Assembly: GCF_002201895.1 (NCBI RefSeq)
Contig: NZ_CP019436.1
Coordinates: forward strand, 385,456-449,455
DNA: 64,000 bases
Direction: 5' to 3'
DNA from: Methanopyrus sp. SNP6
GTDB taxonomy: Archaea; JAADCQ01; Methanopyri; Methanopyrales; Methanopyraceae
In this document: piece after piece, positions 47,597 to 56,386 of the stretch
Numbering within the stretch: the stretch's first letter is position 1
How the letters are laid out: each line of letters opens with the position of its first letter
Position numbers and translations under genes: made by a program
The notes under the pieces: generated by a model
Told to the model about the DNA's origin: nothing
What the model saw: only the letters and a program-made list of their open reading frames with translations
Databases searched by the model: none

Positions 47597-50500
47597 TCAC
47601 CAGCCTCGCGAAGTCCCGATCCTCGGTCTCCACAGCGTGCCGACCAGGACGACCGCCGCCAGCAACGCGACAATGAGGGCTACGAGTATCCAGCGAGGAA
47701 CCGAAGTGGTGACTGGAGATTGCGCCGAGGTTCGACGAAGTACCGAGACCCTCGCCGGTCTCCCCTGCGAGGGTTTACCCTTATCAGCCGAACTTCCGAC
47801 GTTTACCTCGACGGTAGCAGCCGACTTCGCGCCGACAGTACCACGGAGAGGGACGCCCGTAACCGACACCGGGACGACACCTCGACCGGAGCCGCTGAGC
47901 GCAGCCTGACTAGCTAGAGCCGACACGATCATAGCCGAAACCGTGGCCGCTAGACTACCGGTGGCCCGACTTTGGGTGATTTGAGACGATGATGTTCTAA
48001 CGGCATGAACAACGGAGGTTCTAGCGGCCGTGACAGTCGTCGGGATGGTTCCTCTCGTAAACGTGGAGGTGAGCTGCCGGAGGATCCGAGCGGCGAGTTC
48101 CGGGTTGTTCATGTAGTTGGTGGCGAAGACCGCCATGGCCACTCTGAGGTTGGGGACCAGTCCCTCGTACTGGGAGAGGGCCTCTAAGAGGCGCCGCTGC
48201 ACTACCGGGTTCCCGCAGACTCCCGGACAGCAGCATAGGACGCCTCGGAGGAGCTCGGGCACGATCACGTCCCGGACGAGGGTTACGAACTCCCGGCTCT
48301 TGAGGACTTCCTCGTTGATAAGCTTATGTTGAGCCCGGTCATACGCGATCACGAGCAAAGACACCGCCAGCGAGAACAGGCCCTCCGGGGAATATCGCGC
48401 CAGCCAGTCCCGGTTCTCCACGAGTGTCGCGGCCGTACGGCGGAGGATACCCTCCCAGCCGAGGAGCCCCGGTGCGAGAGTGGACCAGCCGCGGATGAGG
48501 TAACTGAGGCGTTTCAGGAGTTCCACCGCACCCGAGTACCCGTGGAATCGGAGTCCACGGACATAAGTTGGGTTGAAGACCGTACGCATCAGATCGTACC
48601 ATGCGTAGGTGTCGAAGGGCATGAGGAAGGAGTACCGAAACGCGGCCATCTCGTTCCCGGTGAGCGTGGCGAGTGTACGGGTAGTCACGGTGGAGAATAA
48701 CGAGGTCATGTTCGAAGCCAGGAGCGCCGCCAAGTAGCTCCCCGCGCCGAGTTGGGGTGCGAGATCACGTAACCAAGGGGCCAGGTTCGGGTTCACCGAG
48801 ATCATCAGCTGGATCTCCTCCGCGAGCCGGCGCGCCATCCGCGAATAATCACCGCCTACGTAAGAGCCAAGGGCTGTGTTCCTAAGGTTCAGGACTAACG
48901 CGTCGATCATCGTCTCTTGCTTGGGTAGCAGCCCGTTGACAGCGCTTACGGCCAGCCTCAAACCGCCCTCGAAAGCGTAGATACAGTCGTCGTAGAAGAA
49001 CGTGGCCTTCTCATCGGATGAAACCATCGTATGAAGCGTGCGGTCGGGCGCCGCGAGGTTCAACGCGAGGAGAAGCGGGAAGCTGGCTCCCCAATACTTC
49101 GGCCCGTAGACGTAGCTGAGACCGGATATCCAACTCATCGCGAGGTTCAACCGATCCTCCAGCAGAAACTCTCCGGACTCGATCGTCTTGCCGATCACGT
49201 TCGTGTAGTCGCCGGGTGCTTGACAGAACACGTTGAACGCGGCGAGTAACGGGAGATCTTCGTCCGGAACTCCACGAATTTGATCGACCCAACCCGTGAT
49301 GATCCCGACGTTCGAAGGTCTCCGAAGACCGGTACCAGGAGTGGAGGTTCGGCTCGACTCCCGACAGGACAACAGCGCCAAGTAGACGACGGCCCAGTCC
49401 AGGAACGGATAATTCTCGGCCGGTGGCACGAGAACGGCGAGTGAGGACGCGGTGTTGACGACGGATTCGAAGTCGTACCCGTGTTCCGCGCAGAACTCCT
49501 CTATCAGGTCGTAGAGCCGCCTCAGCCCCTCCTCGAGCTCGCGAGCCAACTCCTCGTCCGGAGTCGTGAGCGCCCGCCACAGCGCCGCCAGGTACACGTG
49601 TAGCACTGTCTCGTGGATAGGGTTCTTCCATTCACCCTGAGATAATCGCTCCACGATCTCGCGTAGCCACCGACGGACGCAGTACACTGGATGTTCCTCG
49701 GGACCACAGATCTCCAGAACTTTGTCCACGTCGCCGACGATCAGTGAGCTGTGACCGAGTAGTCGTGCCAGATAGGGTTCGGCGGCCAGAATCGCCGCCA
49801 CCCTACCCAAGAACAGTTCCGTCAGGATATTGTGTGCGAACACGTCTCGGAAGCACGAAGTACCCGTGATGATCACATCGGTAAGCCGACGTGGAACCCG
49901 CCGTAATACCAGGCTGGCCGAGATCACCGGTCTGTCTCCCACGAGCGTTATCGTGCCGATCACGGTAACTACCTCTCCCTCCTCAGGCACACGCCCCTCG
50001 TCAATCCGAACCCGGACTTCCGTACGCCCGTCCGTTAGGGTGATCCACCGTCCCTCTACCCGATCGACCCTACCGCGGATCGGAAGTCTACCGAACGCCC
50101 GTCCGACGGCCAAGAGTTGCGTGGGCGTGAGTACCTCGTCCTCGATTCTCTTCACCTCTTCCTCAGAGAGGACCCTAGCGTTAACGACTTCTACACGACC
50201 GCCCGTAGGTACCAGCGTACCTAGCACCATGACTTCATCGTCCAAGTGGAGCGGTATCGGCAGCACGCTGACCGGGCACCGCACCTCGATGCGTTGACCA
50301 CCCATCAGAGGCTCGATCACCAGGCGAACGGCACCCGATCCGAGCGACTCCATCCGAACGATGCGGCCCACAACTAAGATCTGACCGAAGCGTCGGGTAT
50401 AGAACACGCCGCTGGGGTTCATACAAAGGGATGGGTCGACGCCCGTTACGATCCAATCCGAGTTACGGTGTGGGAGTACACCCAACAGGAGCATCTGAAC

Positions 50501-53500
50501 CGCGATCGGCAGTCCCCTGGTGTTGATGTTGTCCGTCGCCCAGTCGAAGGCCACTACCTTTCTAGTGACAGTACGTAGTGGGATCGCAACAGTGTATGCT
50601 ACGTTGATCGAGATCCAGTCAGGCCACTTCCTGGGGTCGAACATGCACGCGTTCCGGCCGGTAGGTAACGCGTCGAGCTGTTTGAAAGGACTAGAGTTGA
50701 AACCCGGCGGCACGTAGCCACCGCTCAGCGCGTTGAGGAAGTTCGCACGTTCGAGCCGCGCACTCTCGAAGAGTAATTCAACGATCCGGGCTGCTTCACG
50801 GTGTAGGTCGTCGACGTCCCGCGTCTCAGGCCGCTCGATCACCTCGCGACATACGTTCAGAGCCTTGGAGTAGTCCAGTGACCCCATCACCTCGTTCAGG
50901 AGTACCCTCGCTGCGAAGCTGGCCATAGTGCTTACGGGATCCTCTCCGATCGGCGGCATCCCGAACACGTGGAGGCCGATCGGAACCACCTCGTGTTCTT
51001 CCAGGTCGTGCAGTAGGAAGTACAGCTTAGCACAGTTCTCGTCGAATCTCCTCTCAAACGCCTCCAGCGAGCTCAGGTTCAGCAGCTCGTAGGCACGCGT
51101 CTTCTTCACTAATTCCAGGATCGCCAGCTTCAGAGAGCTCAAGTGGGAAGACTGATACCTTTCCAACAACTTTAGGAGTCGACCCATGTCGCCGGTGAGT
51201 TCTTCTTTGGCCAGGGATTGCGGTAGATAGTTCACTATCACGGCCCAGCCGCGGCGCTTCGCCACCAGAGCCTCCGACGGGTCCGCGACGTAGTACGGGT
51301 AGACTTGGGGCACGTTTTGGATGCATATCTGCGGGAAGTCCCACCAAGACATGAACAGGGGCTTGTACGGCAGCCACTCGTACGTCCCGTGCTTACCTGT
51401 ATTCACGATCACGTGCGCCCGGAACACCCGGGTGAAGTAGTAGTAGCAGGCCAGATAGTAGTGGCAGGGTGGAAGTACAGTAGAGTGGTACGCGACGCTG
51501 ATCCCGACGTAATATCCTCTGGCGGGTTGGGGCGCGACGATGACGTTTCCGAAGTCGATCCCCCGTATCACGAAGTACATCTTCCCGTCGATCTCGACGA
51601 GGTACCGGGAGCGCTCTGGCGGTCCCCAACCCGTGAACCAACCGTAGAAAGCCTCGACTCGGCTCCACTTAGCATGAAGTGACCTACACAGCTCGAGGGC
51701 GCGCCCCACTTTCTTCTGGTCCGTTAGTGCATCGATGACGGCGTCCACCAGTGACTCCACGTCCCGCCGGAACTGTTCTTTCGTCTCTTCGGGAACGTCC
51801 AGGTATTGCAGGTGACCCGCTATGTAAGATACGAGAGACTTCAGACCGTTGACGATAACCCGTAACTTCAGCGGGTCGGTAATCGGACCGTGCTTTTGGA
51901 TTTGAAGCAGCACCGCCTCTAGGTACCCGAAGACACCCTTCTCCACACACAACCTGGCTTCCTCGGGCAGCGACCGGTACCATTTCAGATACTCGTCGAG
52001 CGGCAACAGGTACAGGTACCGGATCTCCTGCTCCCGCTCCACGAACCGACCGTGCTCATAGGCAAGTAGTCGGAGAACGAGCTTGTGACCTTCCACGCTC
52101 ACACGCCTCAATATGTACGAACCGACGTTGGAACCCTCCTCCACAATGAGGCGTCCTAGTGCATCGGCGAGTGGCCTCACGAGGAGATAGGCCTTGTAGT
52201 AGAGATCGAGAGCTTCCTTCCACTTACCCTCCTGGGCGAGCTTTTCCGCCCGTTCTTCTAGCTCTGCAATCTTCAGCAGCATCTCCTTGATCGATAATCC
52301 TCGAGCGTCGGTCGGGATCTCGTCCGCGAACTCCAACAGCTTCTCCTTAAGTTCCTCTGGAATCTCGACGCGGTACCCTTCCTTAATCAGCCATGCGAGG
52401 AAGTTCACGATCGATGCGGGCACGTCCAACGATGAAGCCGTTCCGACGCCCTCCTTACCCGGCTCCGAAGCCCAGTACAGTATCACGACACGCTTCTCCC
52501 GGTTTGGGATGTTATTGAGTCTTATCCAAGCGAGGATCCTGTCGGCGGCTATGTGGATCATCTCGGGAACAGGTTCGTCCGTGCACATTACGCGATCCAG
52601 TAGCGTTTCTGGACCGTCCTTACGCCACTCGCGAACCGAGATGGGGATACCTTCGATTGCACCGATGTTTTCCGGAATCACGATGTGATACAAGGCGGAC
52701 CAGTCCAGGCCGCTCGGAGTTCGCCAGTACGTCTGCCACTCGCTCATCGTCCAGGGTAGACTCACGAGTTTAATCACGGGTAGATTCAGCTGTTTCAGAA
52801 GATTTACCTCCGGTGAATCTGGGGAACGCATCTTGAAGAAACCAGGGAGAAGTGCAATCGCCTCCACTTTAAATAGCTTTAACTTCGATATCACGTGTTC
52901 GAGAGCGGAAAGTACATCCTCGAAACAACCGTCAAGGATATCGTAATGGAGACCGAGTACTATCGGTACCAAACCACGCTCTATCAGCGCCCTACACAAT
53001 TCGCGAATGGGGGCCGTCCAACCACTTTCTAACCTCGTTGTATCGACGATTATGAGCACACAAGGTATACGTTCCTTTTCAATTTTGGAAGCGTCGTGTG
53101 ATAGGATCAAGCGTAATATTTGAATCATTGAGTAAGGTGGTGTGCTGGTATTCTTCGTATGAGTTGTACTGAGGTGTTCAGCAATAACGCTTGCGGTAAC
53201 CATTGTAATCCCAGAGATGATGTTTGATATGTCCAACATTTTGTTCATTACTTCGGCGACAGCGCGTGGTAGGTGTTTGCGAAGAAGTTCCACAAACCAT
53301 ACTGGATAACGCGTGTGACCGAGGGTTACAGTTTTACTACCGTACCGCCTGATCAGATCGGCCACTTCTTCCGGATCCGGATCGGACGGTCGAATTATTT
53401 CATCCCTAAAAGGATCATAACCTTCGATCCATCCGTCGAATAGATGGTAAGGGCCGGGATGTCCATTAAGGAGATAGGAGAGAAGAGAACGAAAGTTCCG

Positions 53501-53920
53501 AACGGAACGTGACTGTACGTACATGGAGAGCGGTATCTTTAACCCGTGCCAATCAACTTTTATTTGATTCAGCTCTTTCGCATCCGATGGTACCGGAAGA
53601 ACGTTATCGAATTCAAACACACGTTTTTTTGACTCCGAGATAACCTCGTTGAGAATGTTTTCGAGTACTGTGTTACTCGTCGTATGGATTAATAACAAGG
53701 TATCGGCGGATTCAACCTCCTTCCTAACGAGGTCTTCTGAGATCAATCCTTTGGAAACGGCGTCCTCAACGATCACGGTCACAGGGAACCCAGAAGCAGC
53801 CTTCGCGGCCGGGATACCGGTGGACCAATACCTGGTGATGATGACCAACTTATCGGCGTGAACGGGCGATACCGCGATCAAGGATGCGAGCGTGATTACG
53901 AGTGCCGGCTTGAAACTCAT
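47597..53920 (-). CDS. Secreted, membrane-anchored CobN/Mg-chelatase-H-like giant protein
   Basis: 2107 aa from ATG 53920, preceded by GGGGGTG. Residues 1-27 are a signal peptide ending 'VSPVHA'. The CobN/ChlH core is recognisable by 'VNTGKHGTYEWLPYKP' near 840, 'YPYYVADPSEALVAKRRGWAVI', 'ITGTSCFRDVF', 'SSDEKATFFYDDCIYAFEGG' and 'NPTYVRGLRFHGYSGAVELL'. Unlike standard CobN (about 1200-1300 aa), two OB-fold-like beta segments are inserted around 1180-1340. A Ser/Thr-rich stalk leads to a final transmembrane helix ('WILVALIVALLAAVVLVG') and a short basic tail. CobN subunits insert Co or Mg into corrin or porphyrin rings with CobS/CobT in the cytoplasm; here the enzyme must face outside, so metal capture, F430/corrinoid scavenging or a structural use are possibilities. 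N-terminal third is more AT-rich. Confidence 0.85.
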   Translation of the reverse strand: MSFKPALVITLASLIAVSPVHADKLVIITRYWSTGIPAAKAASGFPVTVIVEDAVSKGLISEDLVRKEVESADTLLLIHTTSNTVLENILNEVISESKKRVFEFDNVLPVPSDAKELNQIKVDWHGLKIPLSMYVQSRSVRNFRSLLSYLLNGHPGPYHLFDGWIEGYDPFRDEIIRPSDPDPEEVADLIRRYGSKTVTLGHTRYPVWFVELLRKHLPRAVAEVMNKMLDISNIISGITMVTASVIAEHLSTTHTKNTSTPPYSMIQILRLILSHDASKIEKERIPCVLIIVDTTRLESGWTAPIRELCRALIERGLVPIVLGLHYDILDGCFEDVLSALEHVISKLKLFKVEAIALLPGFFKMRSPDSPEVNLLKQLNLPVIKLVSLPWTMSEWQTYWRTPSGLDWSALYHIVIPENIGAIEGIPISVREWRKDGPETLLDRVMCTDEPVPEMIHIAADRILAWIRLNNIPNREKRVVILYWASEPGKEGVGTASSLDVPASIVNFLAWLIKEGYRVEIPEELKEKLLEFADEIPTDARGLSIKEMLLKIAELEERAEKLAQEGKWKEALDLYYKAYLLVRPLADALGRLIVEEGSNVGSYILRRVSVEGHKLVLRLLAYEHGRFVEREQEIRYLYLLPLDEYLKWYRSLPEEARLCVEKGVFGYLEAVLLQIQKHGPITDPLKLRVIVNGLKSLVSYIAGHLQYLDVPEETKEQFRRDVESLVDAVIDALTDQKKVGRALELCRSLHAKWSRVEAFYGWFTGWGPPERSRYLVEIDGKMYFVIRGIDFGNVIVAPQPARGYYVGISVAYHSTVLPPCHYYLACYYYFTRVFRAHVIVNTGKHGTYEWLPYKPLFMSWWDFPQICIQNVPQVYPYYVADPSEALVAKRRGWAVIVNYLPQSLAKEELTGDMGRLLKLLERYQSSHLSSLKLAILELVKKTRAYELLNLSSLEAFERRFDENCAKLYFLLHDLEEHEVVPIGLHVFGMPPIGEDPVSTMASFAARVLLNEVMGSLDYSKALNVCREVIERPETRDVDDLHREAARIVELLFESARLERANFLNALSGGYVPPGFNSSPFKQLDALPTGRNACMFDPRKWPDWISINVAYTVAIPLRTVTRKVVAFDWATDNINTRGLPIAVQMLLLGVLPHRNSDWIVTGVDPSLCMNPSGVFYTRRFGQILVVGRIVRMESLGSGAVRLVIEPLMGGQRIEVRCPVSVLPIPLHLDDEVMVLGTLVPTGGRVEVVNARVLSEEEVKRIEDEVLTPTQLLAVGRAFGRLPIRGRVDRVEGRWITLTDGRTEVRVRIDEGRVPEEGEVVTVIGTITLVGDRPVISASLVLRRVPRRLTDVIITGTSCFRDVFAHNILTELFLGRVAAILAAEPYLARLLGHSSLIVGDVDKVLEICGPEEHPVYCVRRWLREIVERLSQGEWKNPIHETVLHVYLAALWRALTTPDEELARELEEGLRRLYDLIEEFCAEHGYDFESVVNTASSLAVLVPPAENYPFLDWAVVYLALLSCRESSRTSTPGTGLRRPSNVGIITGWVDQIRGVPDEDLPLLAAFNVFCQAPGDYTNVIGKTIESGEFLLEDRLNLAMSWISGLSYVYGPKYWGASFPLLLALNLAAPDRTLHTMVSSDEKATFFYDDCIYAFEGGLRLAVSAVNGLLPKQETMIDALVLNLRNTALGSYVGGDYSRMARRLAEEIQLMISVNPNLAPWLRDLAPQLGAGSYLAALLASNMTSLFSTVTTRTLATLTGNEMAAFRYSFLMPFDTYAWYDLMRTVFNPTYVRGLRFHGYSGAVELLKRLSYLIRGWSTLAPGLLGWEGILRRTAATLVENRDWLARYSPEGLFSLAVSLLVIAYDRAQHKLINEEVLKSREFVTLVRDVIVPELLRGVLCCCPGVCGNPVVQRRLLEALSQYEGLVPNLRVAMAVFATNYMNNPELAARILRQLTSTFTRGTIPTTVTAARTSVVHAVRTSSSQITQSRATGSLAATVSAMIVSALASQAALSGSGRGVVPVSVTGVPLRGTVGAKSAATVEVNVGSSADKGKPSQGRPARVSVLRRTSAQSPVTTSVPRWILVALIVALLAAVVLVGTLWRPRIGTSRGW

Positions 53921-53963
53921 TGGCCACCCCCTCATGGGAGTACCGAGCGACCGGTCGGAATGA

Positions 53964-53999: not shown

Positions 54000-55748
54000 T
54001 CACCGGCGCCGCAGTAATGCCAGCGCGAGCACGCTCAGAGTCGCCATCACTAGCGGTACCGTGGGTACCCTCTTCCTGGCCCTGGCACGTCCGAATATTT
54101 CGTACTTCACACTCTTCGGTAGGTTCTCCACGGCCTTCAACGCCGCCACTACGTGGGCCGTAGCGAAGGCGCACTCGTTGGCTTCACGGTCCTTGAAGAA
54201 CCGGCTCATGTAAAGGTAATAGGAGCTTTGCGGTGTCGGCACGTAAAAGTAGTACTTGAGTCCGTTCTTAATAGCTTCCTTGTACTGGTTGACAATCGCA
54301 TTAACGACGTTCTTTATCAACTGAACCGTCAGGTTGTCCTTGTAGCCGAGATCCACCACCGTACACAGTCCGAGTAAGGCCGCACACGTGCTCGCGAAGT
54401 CAGGTGATCCCTTGATGTACTCGTTGTATGGGAAGTACCCTGGCTTGTTTTCGAGCTGCATTCCGTAGAGCCAGCACACGTACCGTCTCAGCGCGTCGTG
54501 GAGTAAGTCCCTCGCCTTGTCGCTCAGGTACCCCGCCTTCTCGGCCTCACGGATCGCCCACAGCGCGTAGAAGGAGTATTTAACTGGGTAGTAGTAGGAT
54601 TTCGAGTACAAGCCCTGCTCCACTGCCTGCTTCTCCAGGAAGCACGGGTTACCGTTGCCCTCGTAGAACCGCTTCACTAAGAAGTTAACAGCGTACTTGA
54701 TTATGTCAGCTACCTTGTACGTCGATCCTTCAACGCTCACATTATCGTTTTCACTTATGAGCCCCGTTTTGATGGCATGTATCAGCGTCAGCACAGCGCC
54801 GGCGGTGTCGTAGACGGCGCTGTAATCAACCCAGATGCCGTCCTTCAACCTCTGTCGGACCCAGTAAGCTATCCCGTTCTTCGAGTCGACTATCAGCGCA
54901 TCTTTCTTGTTCTGCTTCGAGCTACAGTATACTTCTGGAGCCAGGATCGCATTTTTAATAATGTACAAGGCGTCGTCTTTGACTGAGTTCCATAAATCGT
55001 CGTCGACAAGTCCTAACTCACGGCCGATTAACAATGGAATCAGTTGGTACAGGCAGACACCGCCGATCGATCCTGTACGGATGTATCCATTTTCTTCTTC
55101 AAGCGTTGTTCTGATGTCCTTGAGCGAGTATTGGTAGTAGTACCCACGTGGATTACTGACTGTTAGTACCCACTTAATAGCCCGTTTTACAGCATTTTTG
55201 AACTGTTCATCTGTCACTCCTTCCTCTACAGCTAGCACTAACATGGGAATGGTAAATTTAGTAATTGAGTACCCTGGCTCGCCTCCAAACCCGACGTATC
55301 CGTACTTATCATTCTTTTTAACGTAAACTATGCGCTTATTGTTGTCAATAAGAGCCAATATCTTGTCTCCCAGTTTAACCGCCTCCAGCCCGTGGTCTGA
55401 GGAGAAGTAGTTATACTTTTTGACGTAAATTATCCGACAGTCTCCCTTGTACGTGGTCGGCCACGTGCCGATATCGACGTCCTCTACCGTGAAGTCCCTG
55501 GACGCCGGACCCTCGTCCTGCAGTTGGCCGTCCTGCTCGGTCGCAAAGTGGACTTCGTACTGATTACCGTTGTAGGTGCCACCTGGATCCCGAAGTGTGT
55601 AGGTCTTACCGACGTCCTGCTCGGTGAACTGGTTCTCCACCAGCCACGCTGTGCTGTCCTTCAAGCATTGGTCGACGTCTTCGAGCGTGACCGCACTGGC
55701 GGGTCCCATCGCCGTTACGCAGCACAGAATCACGAGCAACCGTCTCAC
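54000..55748 (-). CDS. Secreted, membrane-anchored alpha/alpha-toroid-like protein
   Basis: 582 aa from GTG 55748 (GGGGATGA 6 bases upstream). Residues 1-19 form a signal peptide ('LLVILCCVTAMGPASA'). The mature part is mostly helical, with recurring pairs such as 'YDTAGAVLTLIHAIKTG', 'KYSFYALWAIREAEKAG', 'FASTCAALLGLCTVVDLG' and 'ECAFATAHVVAALKAVE', typical of squalene-cyclase/prenyltransferase-like alpha/alpha toroids. Cysteines and tyrosines are frequent. The C-terminus has a hydrophobic helix 'VPLVMATLSVLALALLRRR' followed by arginines, resembling a sorting or anchor signal. The next gene in the same direction, 80 bp on, is the secreted CobN-like protein, so the two could form one cell-surface complex. 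Enzymatic function is not evident. Confidence 0.75.
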   Translation of the reverse strand: MRRLLVILCCVTAMGPASAVTLEDVDQCLKDSTAWLVENQFTEQDVGKTYTLRDPGGTYNGNQYEVHFATEQDGQLQDEGPASRDFTVEDVDIGTWPTTYKGDCRIIYVKKYNYFSSDHGLEAVKLGDKILALIDNNKRIVYVKKNDKYGYVGFGGEPGYSITKFTIPMLVLAVEEGVTDEQFKNAVKRAIKWVLTVSNPRGYYYQYSLKDIRTTLEEENGYIRTGSIGGVCLYQLIPLLIGRELGLVDDDLWNSVKDDALYIIKNAILAPEVYCSSKQNKKDALIVDSKNGIAYWVRQRLKDGIWVDYSAVYDTAGAVLTLIHAIKTGLISENDNVSVEGSTYKVADIIKYAVNFLVKRFYEGNGNPCFLEKQAVEQGLYSKSYYYPVKYSFYALWAIREAEKAGYLSDKARDLLHDALRRYVCWLYGMQLENKPGYFPYNEYIKGSPDFASTCAALLGLCTVVDLGYKDNLTVQLIKNVVNAIVNQYKEAIKNGLKYYFYVPTPQSSYYLYMSRFFKDREANECAFATAHVVAALKAVENLPKSVKYEIFGRARARKRVPTVPLVMATLSVLALALLRRR

Positions 55749-55889: not shown

Positions 55890-56270
55890 TCAGTCTCCGT
55901 GGATCTCCTCGAGTAGTTCCTCTACTATCTTCTCCCGGACTTCCTCTCCGGTGACGCGTCGGAGGATGGCTCCTAACGTCTCGTCATCGTCCACCGGGAT
56001 GAAATACGCCGTCTTACGGCCGAGACGCTTCGACTTCAGCAGCCCTTCCTGCCTAACCTTGTAGAGTGCGCTTCTGATGCTGTTGGCTTTGACGTTGTAT
56101 CCTAGTTCTTTAAGCACCTTAACGATTTCATCAACGTTAATCCATTGACCCTTAAGGCTCGCTAGTAACACCACCGCCAAGGCCGCTCCTAGGTTCGTTA
56201 GCTCACCTTCACGAAGCCTTCTCTTAATCTCTTCGACATCCTTCTGGAACTCCTTCGTGACCTCAGACAA
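55890..56270 (-). CDS. Winged-helix regulator-like protein
   Basis: 126 aa from TTG 56270, which has GGGGGGTGG 6 bases upstream (GTG 56306 would add 12 residues). A helical charged N-terminus 'KEFQKDVEEIKRRLREGEL' precedes a winged helix-turn-helix: 'GQWINVDEIVKVLKELGYNVKANSIRSALYKVRQEGLLKSKRLGRKTAYFIP' region, with recognition helix around 'ANSIRSALYKVRQEGLL'. The C-terminus is an acidic helix 'VREKIVEELLEEIHGD'. It may regulate the secreted toroid and CobN-like genes that lie directly downstream, 140 bp away and in the same direction, but there is no direct proof. Confidence 0.75.
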   Translation of the reverse strand: MSEVTKEFQKDVEEIKRRLREGELTNLGAALAVVLLASLKGQWINVDEIVKVLKELGYNVKANSIRSALYKVRQEGLLKSKRLGRKTAYFIPVDDDETLGAILRRVTGEEVREKIVEELLEEIHGD

Positions 56271-56386
56271 CTCCGACCACCCCCCTCCACGTCTAATTCC
56301 TTGCACTGGCGGGATTCGCTGTTAATAAATAAATCGCCGTGCGGTTACCGAACTGACTTACATGTGGGCCGATGACGAGGTAATCC

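Follow-up and report, generated by a model that had tools for sequence, protein, structure and literature searches.

What might a relative of the cobaltochelatase subunit CobN do on the outside of a methanogen cell? This question is raised by a gene in the 64,000-nucleotide stretch analysed here from the genome of the heat-loving methanogen Methanopyrus sp. SNP6 (contig NZ_CP019436.1, positions 385,456 to 449,455; hereafter the window). The gene (47597..53935, minus strand, as are all features given below by window position) encodes a CobN-like class I chelatase homologue of 2112 amino acids, counted from the first ATG, that is predicted to be exported and anchored at its C-terminus. A first-pass annotation had noted such an exported, anchored CobN-like protein; this observation is confirmed, and the interpretation attached to it is partly supported. 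The window protein, a relative of enzymes that insert metals into vitamin B12 and heme or remove them, belongs to the membrane-anchored half of the class I chelatases, which also contains the heme dechelatase HmuS of Bacteroidota, and it lacks defining features of HmuS itself, namely the second active-site motif, a methionine-rich insertion and the operon. In the following, G000 denotes the host genome (1.42 Mb, one contig, C1), G001 and G004 are genomes of the same genus, and L-numbers are loci or sequences used for comparison.

The arrangement described in the annotation, a CobN/ChlH core between a signal peptide and a Ser/Thr-rich stalk with a transmembrane helix, was borne out by the Pfam family PF02514, hydropathy, composition and three Methanopyrus orthologues. 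Only the gene limits needed extension: the proposed end at 53920 is a valid second in-frame ATG (M6, giving 2107 residues) and as good a start as the first, and the frame reaches 53935. From either start the protein carries a putative signal peptide (residues 1-27, 53855..53935) with a short n-region, ALVITLASLIAVSPVHA and then DK, with cleavage expected after VHA. The orthologue L041 begins near the second ATG and has the same signal peptide. The stalk (residues 1935-2080, 47696..48133) contains 27% Ser plus Thr versus 11% in the remaining protein. It is followed by the predicted transmembrane helix (residues 2083-2101, 47633..47689), the sole strong hydrophobic helix with a mean hydropathy of 3.1, and by a basic tail, RPRIGTSRGW. 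Signal peptide and C-terminal helix were predicted by hydropathy and conservation rather than by a dedicated predictor. Since all of these features recur in the three orthologues at 54-88% identity to the window protein, frame and architecture are conserved and not a product of chance. The protein is thus predicted to be extracytoplasmic with a membrane anchor.

PF02514 matched the window protein with 448.9 bits (curated cut-off 24.5, E=5e-134) in four stretches that jointly cover profile positions 59-1034 of 1090, and its sequence relatives in the PDB are CobN, ChlH and HmuS. Residues 28-759 (51659..53854) form the head/neck part, which corresponds to PF02514 positions 59-351 and aligns with domains I-II of all three relatives; this region is too divergent for a safe alignment with the HmuS head/neck heme ligands Met79 and His254. 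For residues 760-1915, a structure predicted from 59 sequences reached a mean predicted local distance difference test score (pLDDT) of 83 and a predicted template modelling score of 0.85. The top Foldseek matches of this body model were CobN (7c6o, E 3.7e-22), HmuS (9d26, 2.0e-21) and ChlH (4zhj), and on this model the window protein has the class I chelatase fold of the CobN/ChlH/HmuS superfamily. The OB-fold-like inserts that had been suspected around residues 1180-1340 appear in the model as two five-stranded units (residues 1186-1255, 50171..50380, and 1283-1345, 49901..50089). Their Foldseek matches, to OB domains of lysyl-tRNA synthetases, engineered OB proteins and tandem-OB HIN domains, are weak (E about 0.1-0.2 over some 70 to 200 columns). 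Among the sequences compared, these inserts are confined to the four orthologues, including the window protein, and one paralogue (L014).

The position of the window protein within the superfamily was analysed in a tree of 48 proteins, in which anchored members were defined by the hydropathy of their final 100 residues. The 29 anchored proteins are parted from the 19 cytosolic ones by one branch, which has 99/97 support and is present in every one of 200 bootstrap trees; an earlier, larger tree of 62 proteins gave the identical split. Both the window protein and the Bacteroidales HmuS proteins L224 and L225 fall on the anchored side. Because one branch separates all membrane-anchored proteins, true HmuS included, from all cytosolic CobNs, export appears to be ancient and not a quirk. 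Three genuine HmuS proteins (L224-L226), recognised by LSLDHV(Y/F)EFMGG and membrane helices, were found in Bacteroidales-type genomes, and L225 also has an ExbB neighbour gene.

A post-core motif follows the same division. CCCPGVCGN in the window protein (residues 1901-1909, 48209..48235) represents C-x4-C-x-N, a typical feature of the anchored members that cytosolic CobN lacks. Among 162 distinct sequences, 52 have both the helix and the motif or a variant of it, 92 have neither, 12 have a helix without the motif and 6 the motif without a helix, several of the latter ending at a contig or locus border. A profile of the post-core region aligned through HmuS (109 bits) and stopped before the motif in CobN and ChlH (at most 61 bits). 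Within HmuS the motif is not universal, being present in L226 and absent from L224 and L225. The anchored relatives were gathered by genome searches, while an alignment-based contig scan gave mostly cytosolic bacterial CobNs. CobN homologues occur in 29 of 30 sampled Methanobacteriales genomes, many of them anchored where loci were read.

Some of these loci stood out in their own right. In Methanobacteriales, some anchored CobN genes are interrupted by stops or frame breaks and lie next to intact paralogues (L181, L184, L057), a sign of rapid gene turnover. On a contig assigned to an Actinomycetota metagenome-assembled genome (L059, JASEEZ010000026.1), an anchored CobN is nested among Methanobacteriales, which probably reflects a misbinned contig or a transfer. 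Beside another anchored CobN, a Methanobacteriales genome of 1,751,377 bp encodes a secreted protein of 966 residues that has FmdE domains and, below threshold, a Shr-like heme-protein domain (L187:10128-13028).

HmuS is membrane-bound and takes iron out of heme without ATP, although a reductant is required (PMC12583661); NADH is perhaps not its natural electron donor (PMC13227078). These properties bear on an objection in the annotation, that a CobN relative could not function extracellularly given that its ATPases are cytoplasmic. HmuS, with which the window protein groups, is active outside the cytoplasm and needs no ATP, so the objection is answered. No AAA+ partners of the CobS/CobT type were recognised among the neighbours of the window gene, the only part of the genome inspected for them. 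With HmuS (9d26, 9p4s; PMC12583661) the window protein shares the class I chelatase body, an N-terminal membrane-targeting segment, a C-terminal helix, the (here predicted) extracytoplasmic location, the superfamily histidine (His538 in HmuS, His849 here), the post-core C-x4-C-x-N region, the side of the tree, and the genomic presence of ExbB and DUF2149 genes. Unlike HmuS, it has tandem OB inserts, a Ser/Thr stalk, a putative toroid partner, and Cys and Ala for His1209 and Glu1212. In the alignment it lacks the methionine-rich insertion of about 120 residues in domain IV, and the linkage of the hmu operon is missing at its gene. Homologues of hmuY and hmuR are not expected in Methanopyrus because it has no outer membrane; no search for them was made.

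CobN cobaltochelatase (7c6o, 9uk9) has the same order and fold of core domains, but it is cytosolic, lacks the anchor and the post-core extension, works with ATPase partners and falls on the opposite side of the tree; with the NCBIfam CobN equivalog TIGR02257 the window protein scored 283 bits, below the cut-off of 822. The magnesium chelatase subunit ChlH/BchH (4zhj) is alike in fold, yet it has no anchor and depends on ATP-dependent partners, and the window protein scored 251.5 bits with the NCBIfam BchH model, for which the cut-off is 829. Anchored CobN homologues of Methanobacteriales and Methanosarcinales (L044-L048, L148, L180-L197) resemble the window protein in signal peptide, chelatase core, CCxxxCxN and C-terminal helix. 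However, OB inserts and a toroid partner were not seen in them, and several adjoin DUF2162, ExbB and DUF2149 genes.

We then compared the residues of the active site. In HmuS, His538 and His1209 hold a cation between them, and Glu1212 stands behind (PMC12583661). The equivalent of His538 is His849 (51389..51391) in NTGKHGTYEWLP, the GxHG histidine of domain III that is conserved across the superfamily; its column was invariant in a 16-sequence alignment. In FYDDCIYAFEGG (residues 1647-1658, 48962..48997), Cys1651 stands at the place of the axial His1209 and Ala1654 at that of Glu1212, and both are identical in all four orthologues. Most other anchored archaeal proteins have Asp at the second axial position as in CobN, and this is usually so in those of Methanobacteriales and Methanosarcinales. 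The loss of all active-site residues, which the annotation had named as grounds for abandoning its idea, is therefore not what was seen: judged from the alignments, the active site is altered and not erased. The paralogue L014, in which both motifs are gone, would be such a case. In a separate cytosolic CobN clade (L138-L140, from Methanococcoides, Desulfobacterales and Methanoregula), the second metal site carries a CCC-type motif.

The window protein is not a one-off. The host genome encodes five exported, anchored CobN-like proteins, namely the window protein, L010 (1775 residues), L011 (1736), L013 (1334, with a short and weak signal peptide by hydropathy) and L014 (1944), which share 20-41% identity. 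It additionally encodes a cytosolic CobN (L009, 1201 residues) and a split pair (L012). In the latter (L012:8140-11477, G000:C1 about 885139-888477), a cytosolic-type CobN lies in two halves on opposite strands, the N-half on plus and the C-half on minus. Such split genes are shared by four or more of the five Methanopyrus genomes, and the C-half of the host is broken by TGA and TAG.

All five anchored CobN genes of the host adjoin a gene of one secreted family. At the window gene, this candidate partner (54000..55748) lies 64 nt upstream in the same direction and encodes a secreted 582-residue protein with a signal peptide and a hydrophobic-RRR tail at its C-terminus. Its predicted model (pLDDT 88) comprises an alpha/alpha toroid and an N-terminal beta-rich part, and Foldseek returned glycoside hydrolases, terpene cyclases and transcobalamin, all at weak E-values. 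The toroid gene lies 14-64 nt upstream in the same direction at L014 and the window gene, and is divergent at L010, L011 and L013; at L013 one extra secreted gene separates the pair. Toroid genes were surveyed in the fetched regions of the genome, and at other Methanopyrus loci the pairing was kept wherever the toroid flank could be read. A transcobalamin-like carrier function of the toroid protein was considered and rejected, as its Foldseek matches are common to many toroid enzymes at similar E-values.

The secreted neighbours (54000-55748, those at L010, L011, L013 and L014, and L212) end alike, roughly basic-PVxP-hydrophobic-RRR. An archaeosortase/exosortase-like gene is present in the host near C1:667056, and the shared tail is perhaps a new C-terminal sorting signal; in an NCBIfam scan of the tails, no sorting-signal model matched. 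The same tail ends a secreted 508-residue protein beside the anchored CobN of L011 (L011:13985-15511) that has no Pfam or PDB relative; its assignment by eye as a CbiX-type chelatase was backed by neither. Upstream of the window toroid gene, at a distance of 141 nt, a small winged-helix protein (55890-56306) with a weak PaaX/penicillinase-repressor match, also present in L041, is a possible regulator. An Rfam scan of the window matched only a tRNA, with no riboswitch close to the chelatase gene.

A second candidate partner came from the comparison with the hmu operon, which comprises genes for HmuY, HmuS and a TonB-dependent receptor together with those for a membrane protein, ExbB and DUF2149 (PMC10434189). 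ExbB and DUF2149 genes, the kinds that make up hmuU and hmuV, were also seen beside anchored CobNs of Methanobacteriales. Among 30 genomes of that order, the distance from a CobN homologue to the nearest DUF2149 gene is at most 4 kb in 13 and at most 15 kb in 20. The rough expectation by chance is 1-7% per genome for 4 kb, these genomes being related and not independent. DUF2162 and ExbB genes accompany DUF2149 at the anchored-CobN loci that were read. Five Methanopyrus genomes carry a single DUF2149 gene each. In the host it lies outside the window, in an operon (G000:C1:364708-367599, L214:6709-9600) for a 233-residue membrane or secreted protein, DUF2162, MotA/ExbB and DUF2149; the DUF2162-ExbB-DUF2149 operon was also found in G001 and G004. 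It is likely an archaeal ExbBD-type motor, and possibly the driver of the anchored CobNs. Two candidates for the unknown partner allowed for in the annotation have emerged, the adjacent toroid protein and this operon.

Taken together, we favour an HmuS-like extracytoplasmic, membrane-anchored class I chelatase that acts as a surface (de)chelatase or metallo-tetrapyrrole scavenger, and we give this reading about an even chance of being right. Fold, predicted export and anchor, the retained superfamily histidine and membership of the anchored half were computed, whereas substrate, direction, partner and energy source are inferred. The head outside the membrane would capture a metallo-tetrapyrrole, be it F430, something left from its breakdown, a corrinoid, or heme of lysed neighbours, and hand it on to the cleft of the body, in which H849 and C1651 may bind the metal from either side. 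Nickel, cobalt or iron would then be freed for uptake, or the ring held for uptake, and as in HmuS no ATPase would be required. The toroid protein could serve as a surface capture or docking subunit, and the OB inserts could provide binding sites for this subunit or for polymers of the wall. The single DUF2162/ExbB/DUF2149 operon may couple the proton-motive force to several anchored CobNs, as hmuTUV may for HmuS. The strongest hint from outside in favour of this reading is that a hydrogenotrophic methanogen makes much of a protein annotated CobN1, possibly an anchored one, only when nickel is limiting (PMC12350162). Metal or tetrapyrrole capture at the surface, a use already raised in the annotation, is kept as a possibility.

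Several points weigh against this reading. The HmuS motif LSLDHxxEFMGG is not conserved in the window protein, and with Cys1651 and Ala1654 in place of His1209 and Glu1212 catalysis may differ or be absent. In L014, Arg replaces the first His and the second motif is gone, and its persistence in this state suits a binding role. The 48-protein tree is unrooted and was built without ChlH, and its Methanopyrus group stands on long branches whose join the tree tool warned may be false. The DUF2162/ExbB/DUF2149 operon adjoins no CobN in Methanopyrus and lies 65 kb from the window gene. One genome (G066) has four DUF2149 genes and no CobN, so the module is not exclusive to CobN and has other uses. 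HmuT gave no Pfam match to the DUF2162 profile, and we therefore claim only that the two are alike in position and membrane topology.

The changed second axial residue would also suit a surface receptor, which would hold a tetrapyrrole or free metal ions in its chelatase fold and offer them to a transporter, with no metal inserted or removed. The degenerate L014 (L014:5770-11604), probably a pseudo-enzyme that has kept its toroid neighbour, points the same way, as does the large, fast-diverging expansion of paralogues, a pattern in keeping with ligand capture; the partner also shares its toroid fold with the cobalamin carrier transcobalamin (8ixu, E 0.008, among many unspecific matches). Against such a receptor, H849, its GKHGTYEWLP surroundings and the FYDDCIYAF motif are invariant among orthologues at 54-88% identity, and other anchored paralogues keep full CobN-like motifs, so that we regard a purely non-catalytic role as doubtful.

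That the cleft motifs are among the invariant columns also speaks against a structural or adhesive envelope protein with a co-opted fold, as does a split from cytosolic CobN that is shared with a known enzyme. In such a protein the OB inserts, stalk and toroid partner would assemble into a surface layer or attach to wall polymers or to other cells. The Ser/Thr stalk, the tandem OB units, neighbours with surface-anchor tails, the archaeosortase-like gene and several paralogues, one of them lacking active-site motifs, would fit, and we consider this role unlikely. A CobN-like body and an ExbB-type operon in the genome could further be taken to mean that metal is inserted into a tetrapyrrole at the surface, as by CobN and ChlH inside, with the proton-motive force instead of ATP. 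There is, however, no known reason for a metal-free acceptor outside, HmuS works in the removal direction, and methanogens insert nickel and cobalt inside the cell via small CbiX/CfbA-type chelatases. Surface insertion is thus highly improbable.

The HmuS-like reading can tentatively be extended to a widespread harvesting of metals at the surface of methanogens, a possibility we hold well below even chance. Anchored CobN-like demetallases would strip nickel, cobalt or iron from extracellular F430, corrinoids or heme, driven by an archaeal ExbB/DUF2149 motor, and Methanopyrus would have elaborated on this with five paralogues and toroid partners, here with OB inserts and a His/Cys metal site. 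A literature search by title and abstract, with subscription papers mostly outside its coverage, found no earlier report of an exported CobN, or of CobN with ExbB, in methanogens, and the use of HmuS/CobN homologues by archaea was called unclear in the 2025 HmuS paper (PMC12583661). Our results indicate that many of these archaeal homologues are predicted to be exported and anchored, cleanly apart from cytosolic CobN and with candidate partners, which corrects their routine annotation as cobaltochelatase subunits of B12 synthesis. Because the anchored proteins of Methanopyrus group with HmuS, a bacterial surface enzyme that strips iron from heme, they suggest an unrecognised route by which methanogens may harvest metals from tetrapyrroles, and they yield testable predictions on how these organisms get nickel and cobalt, the metals required for methane formation.

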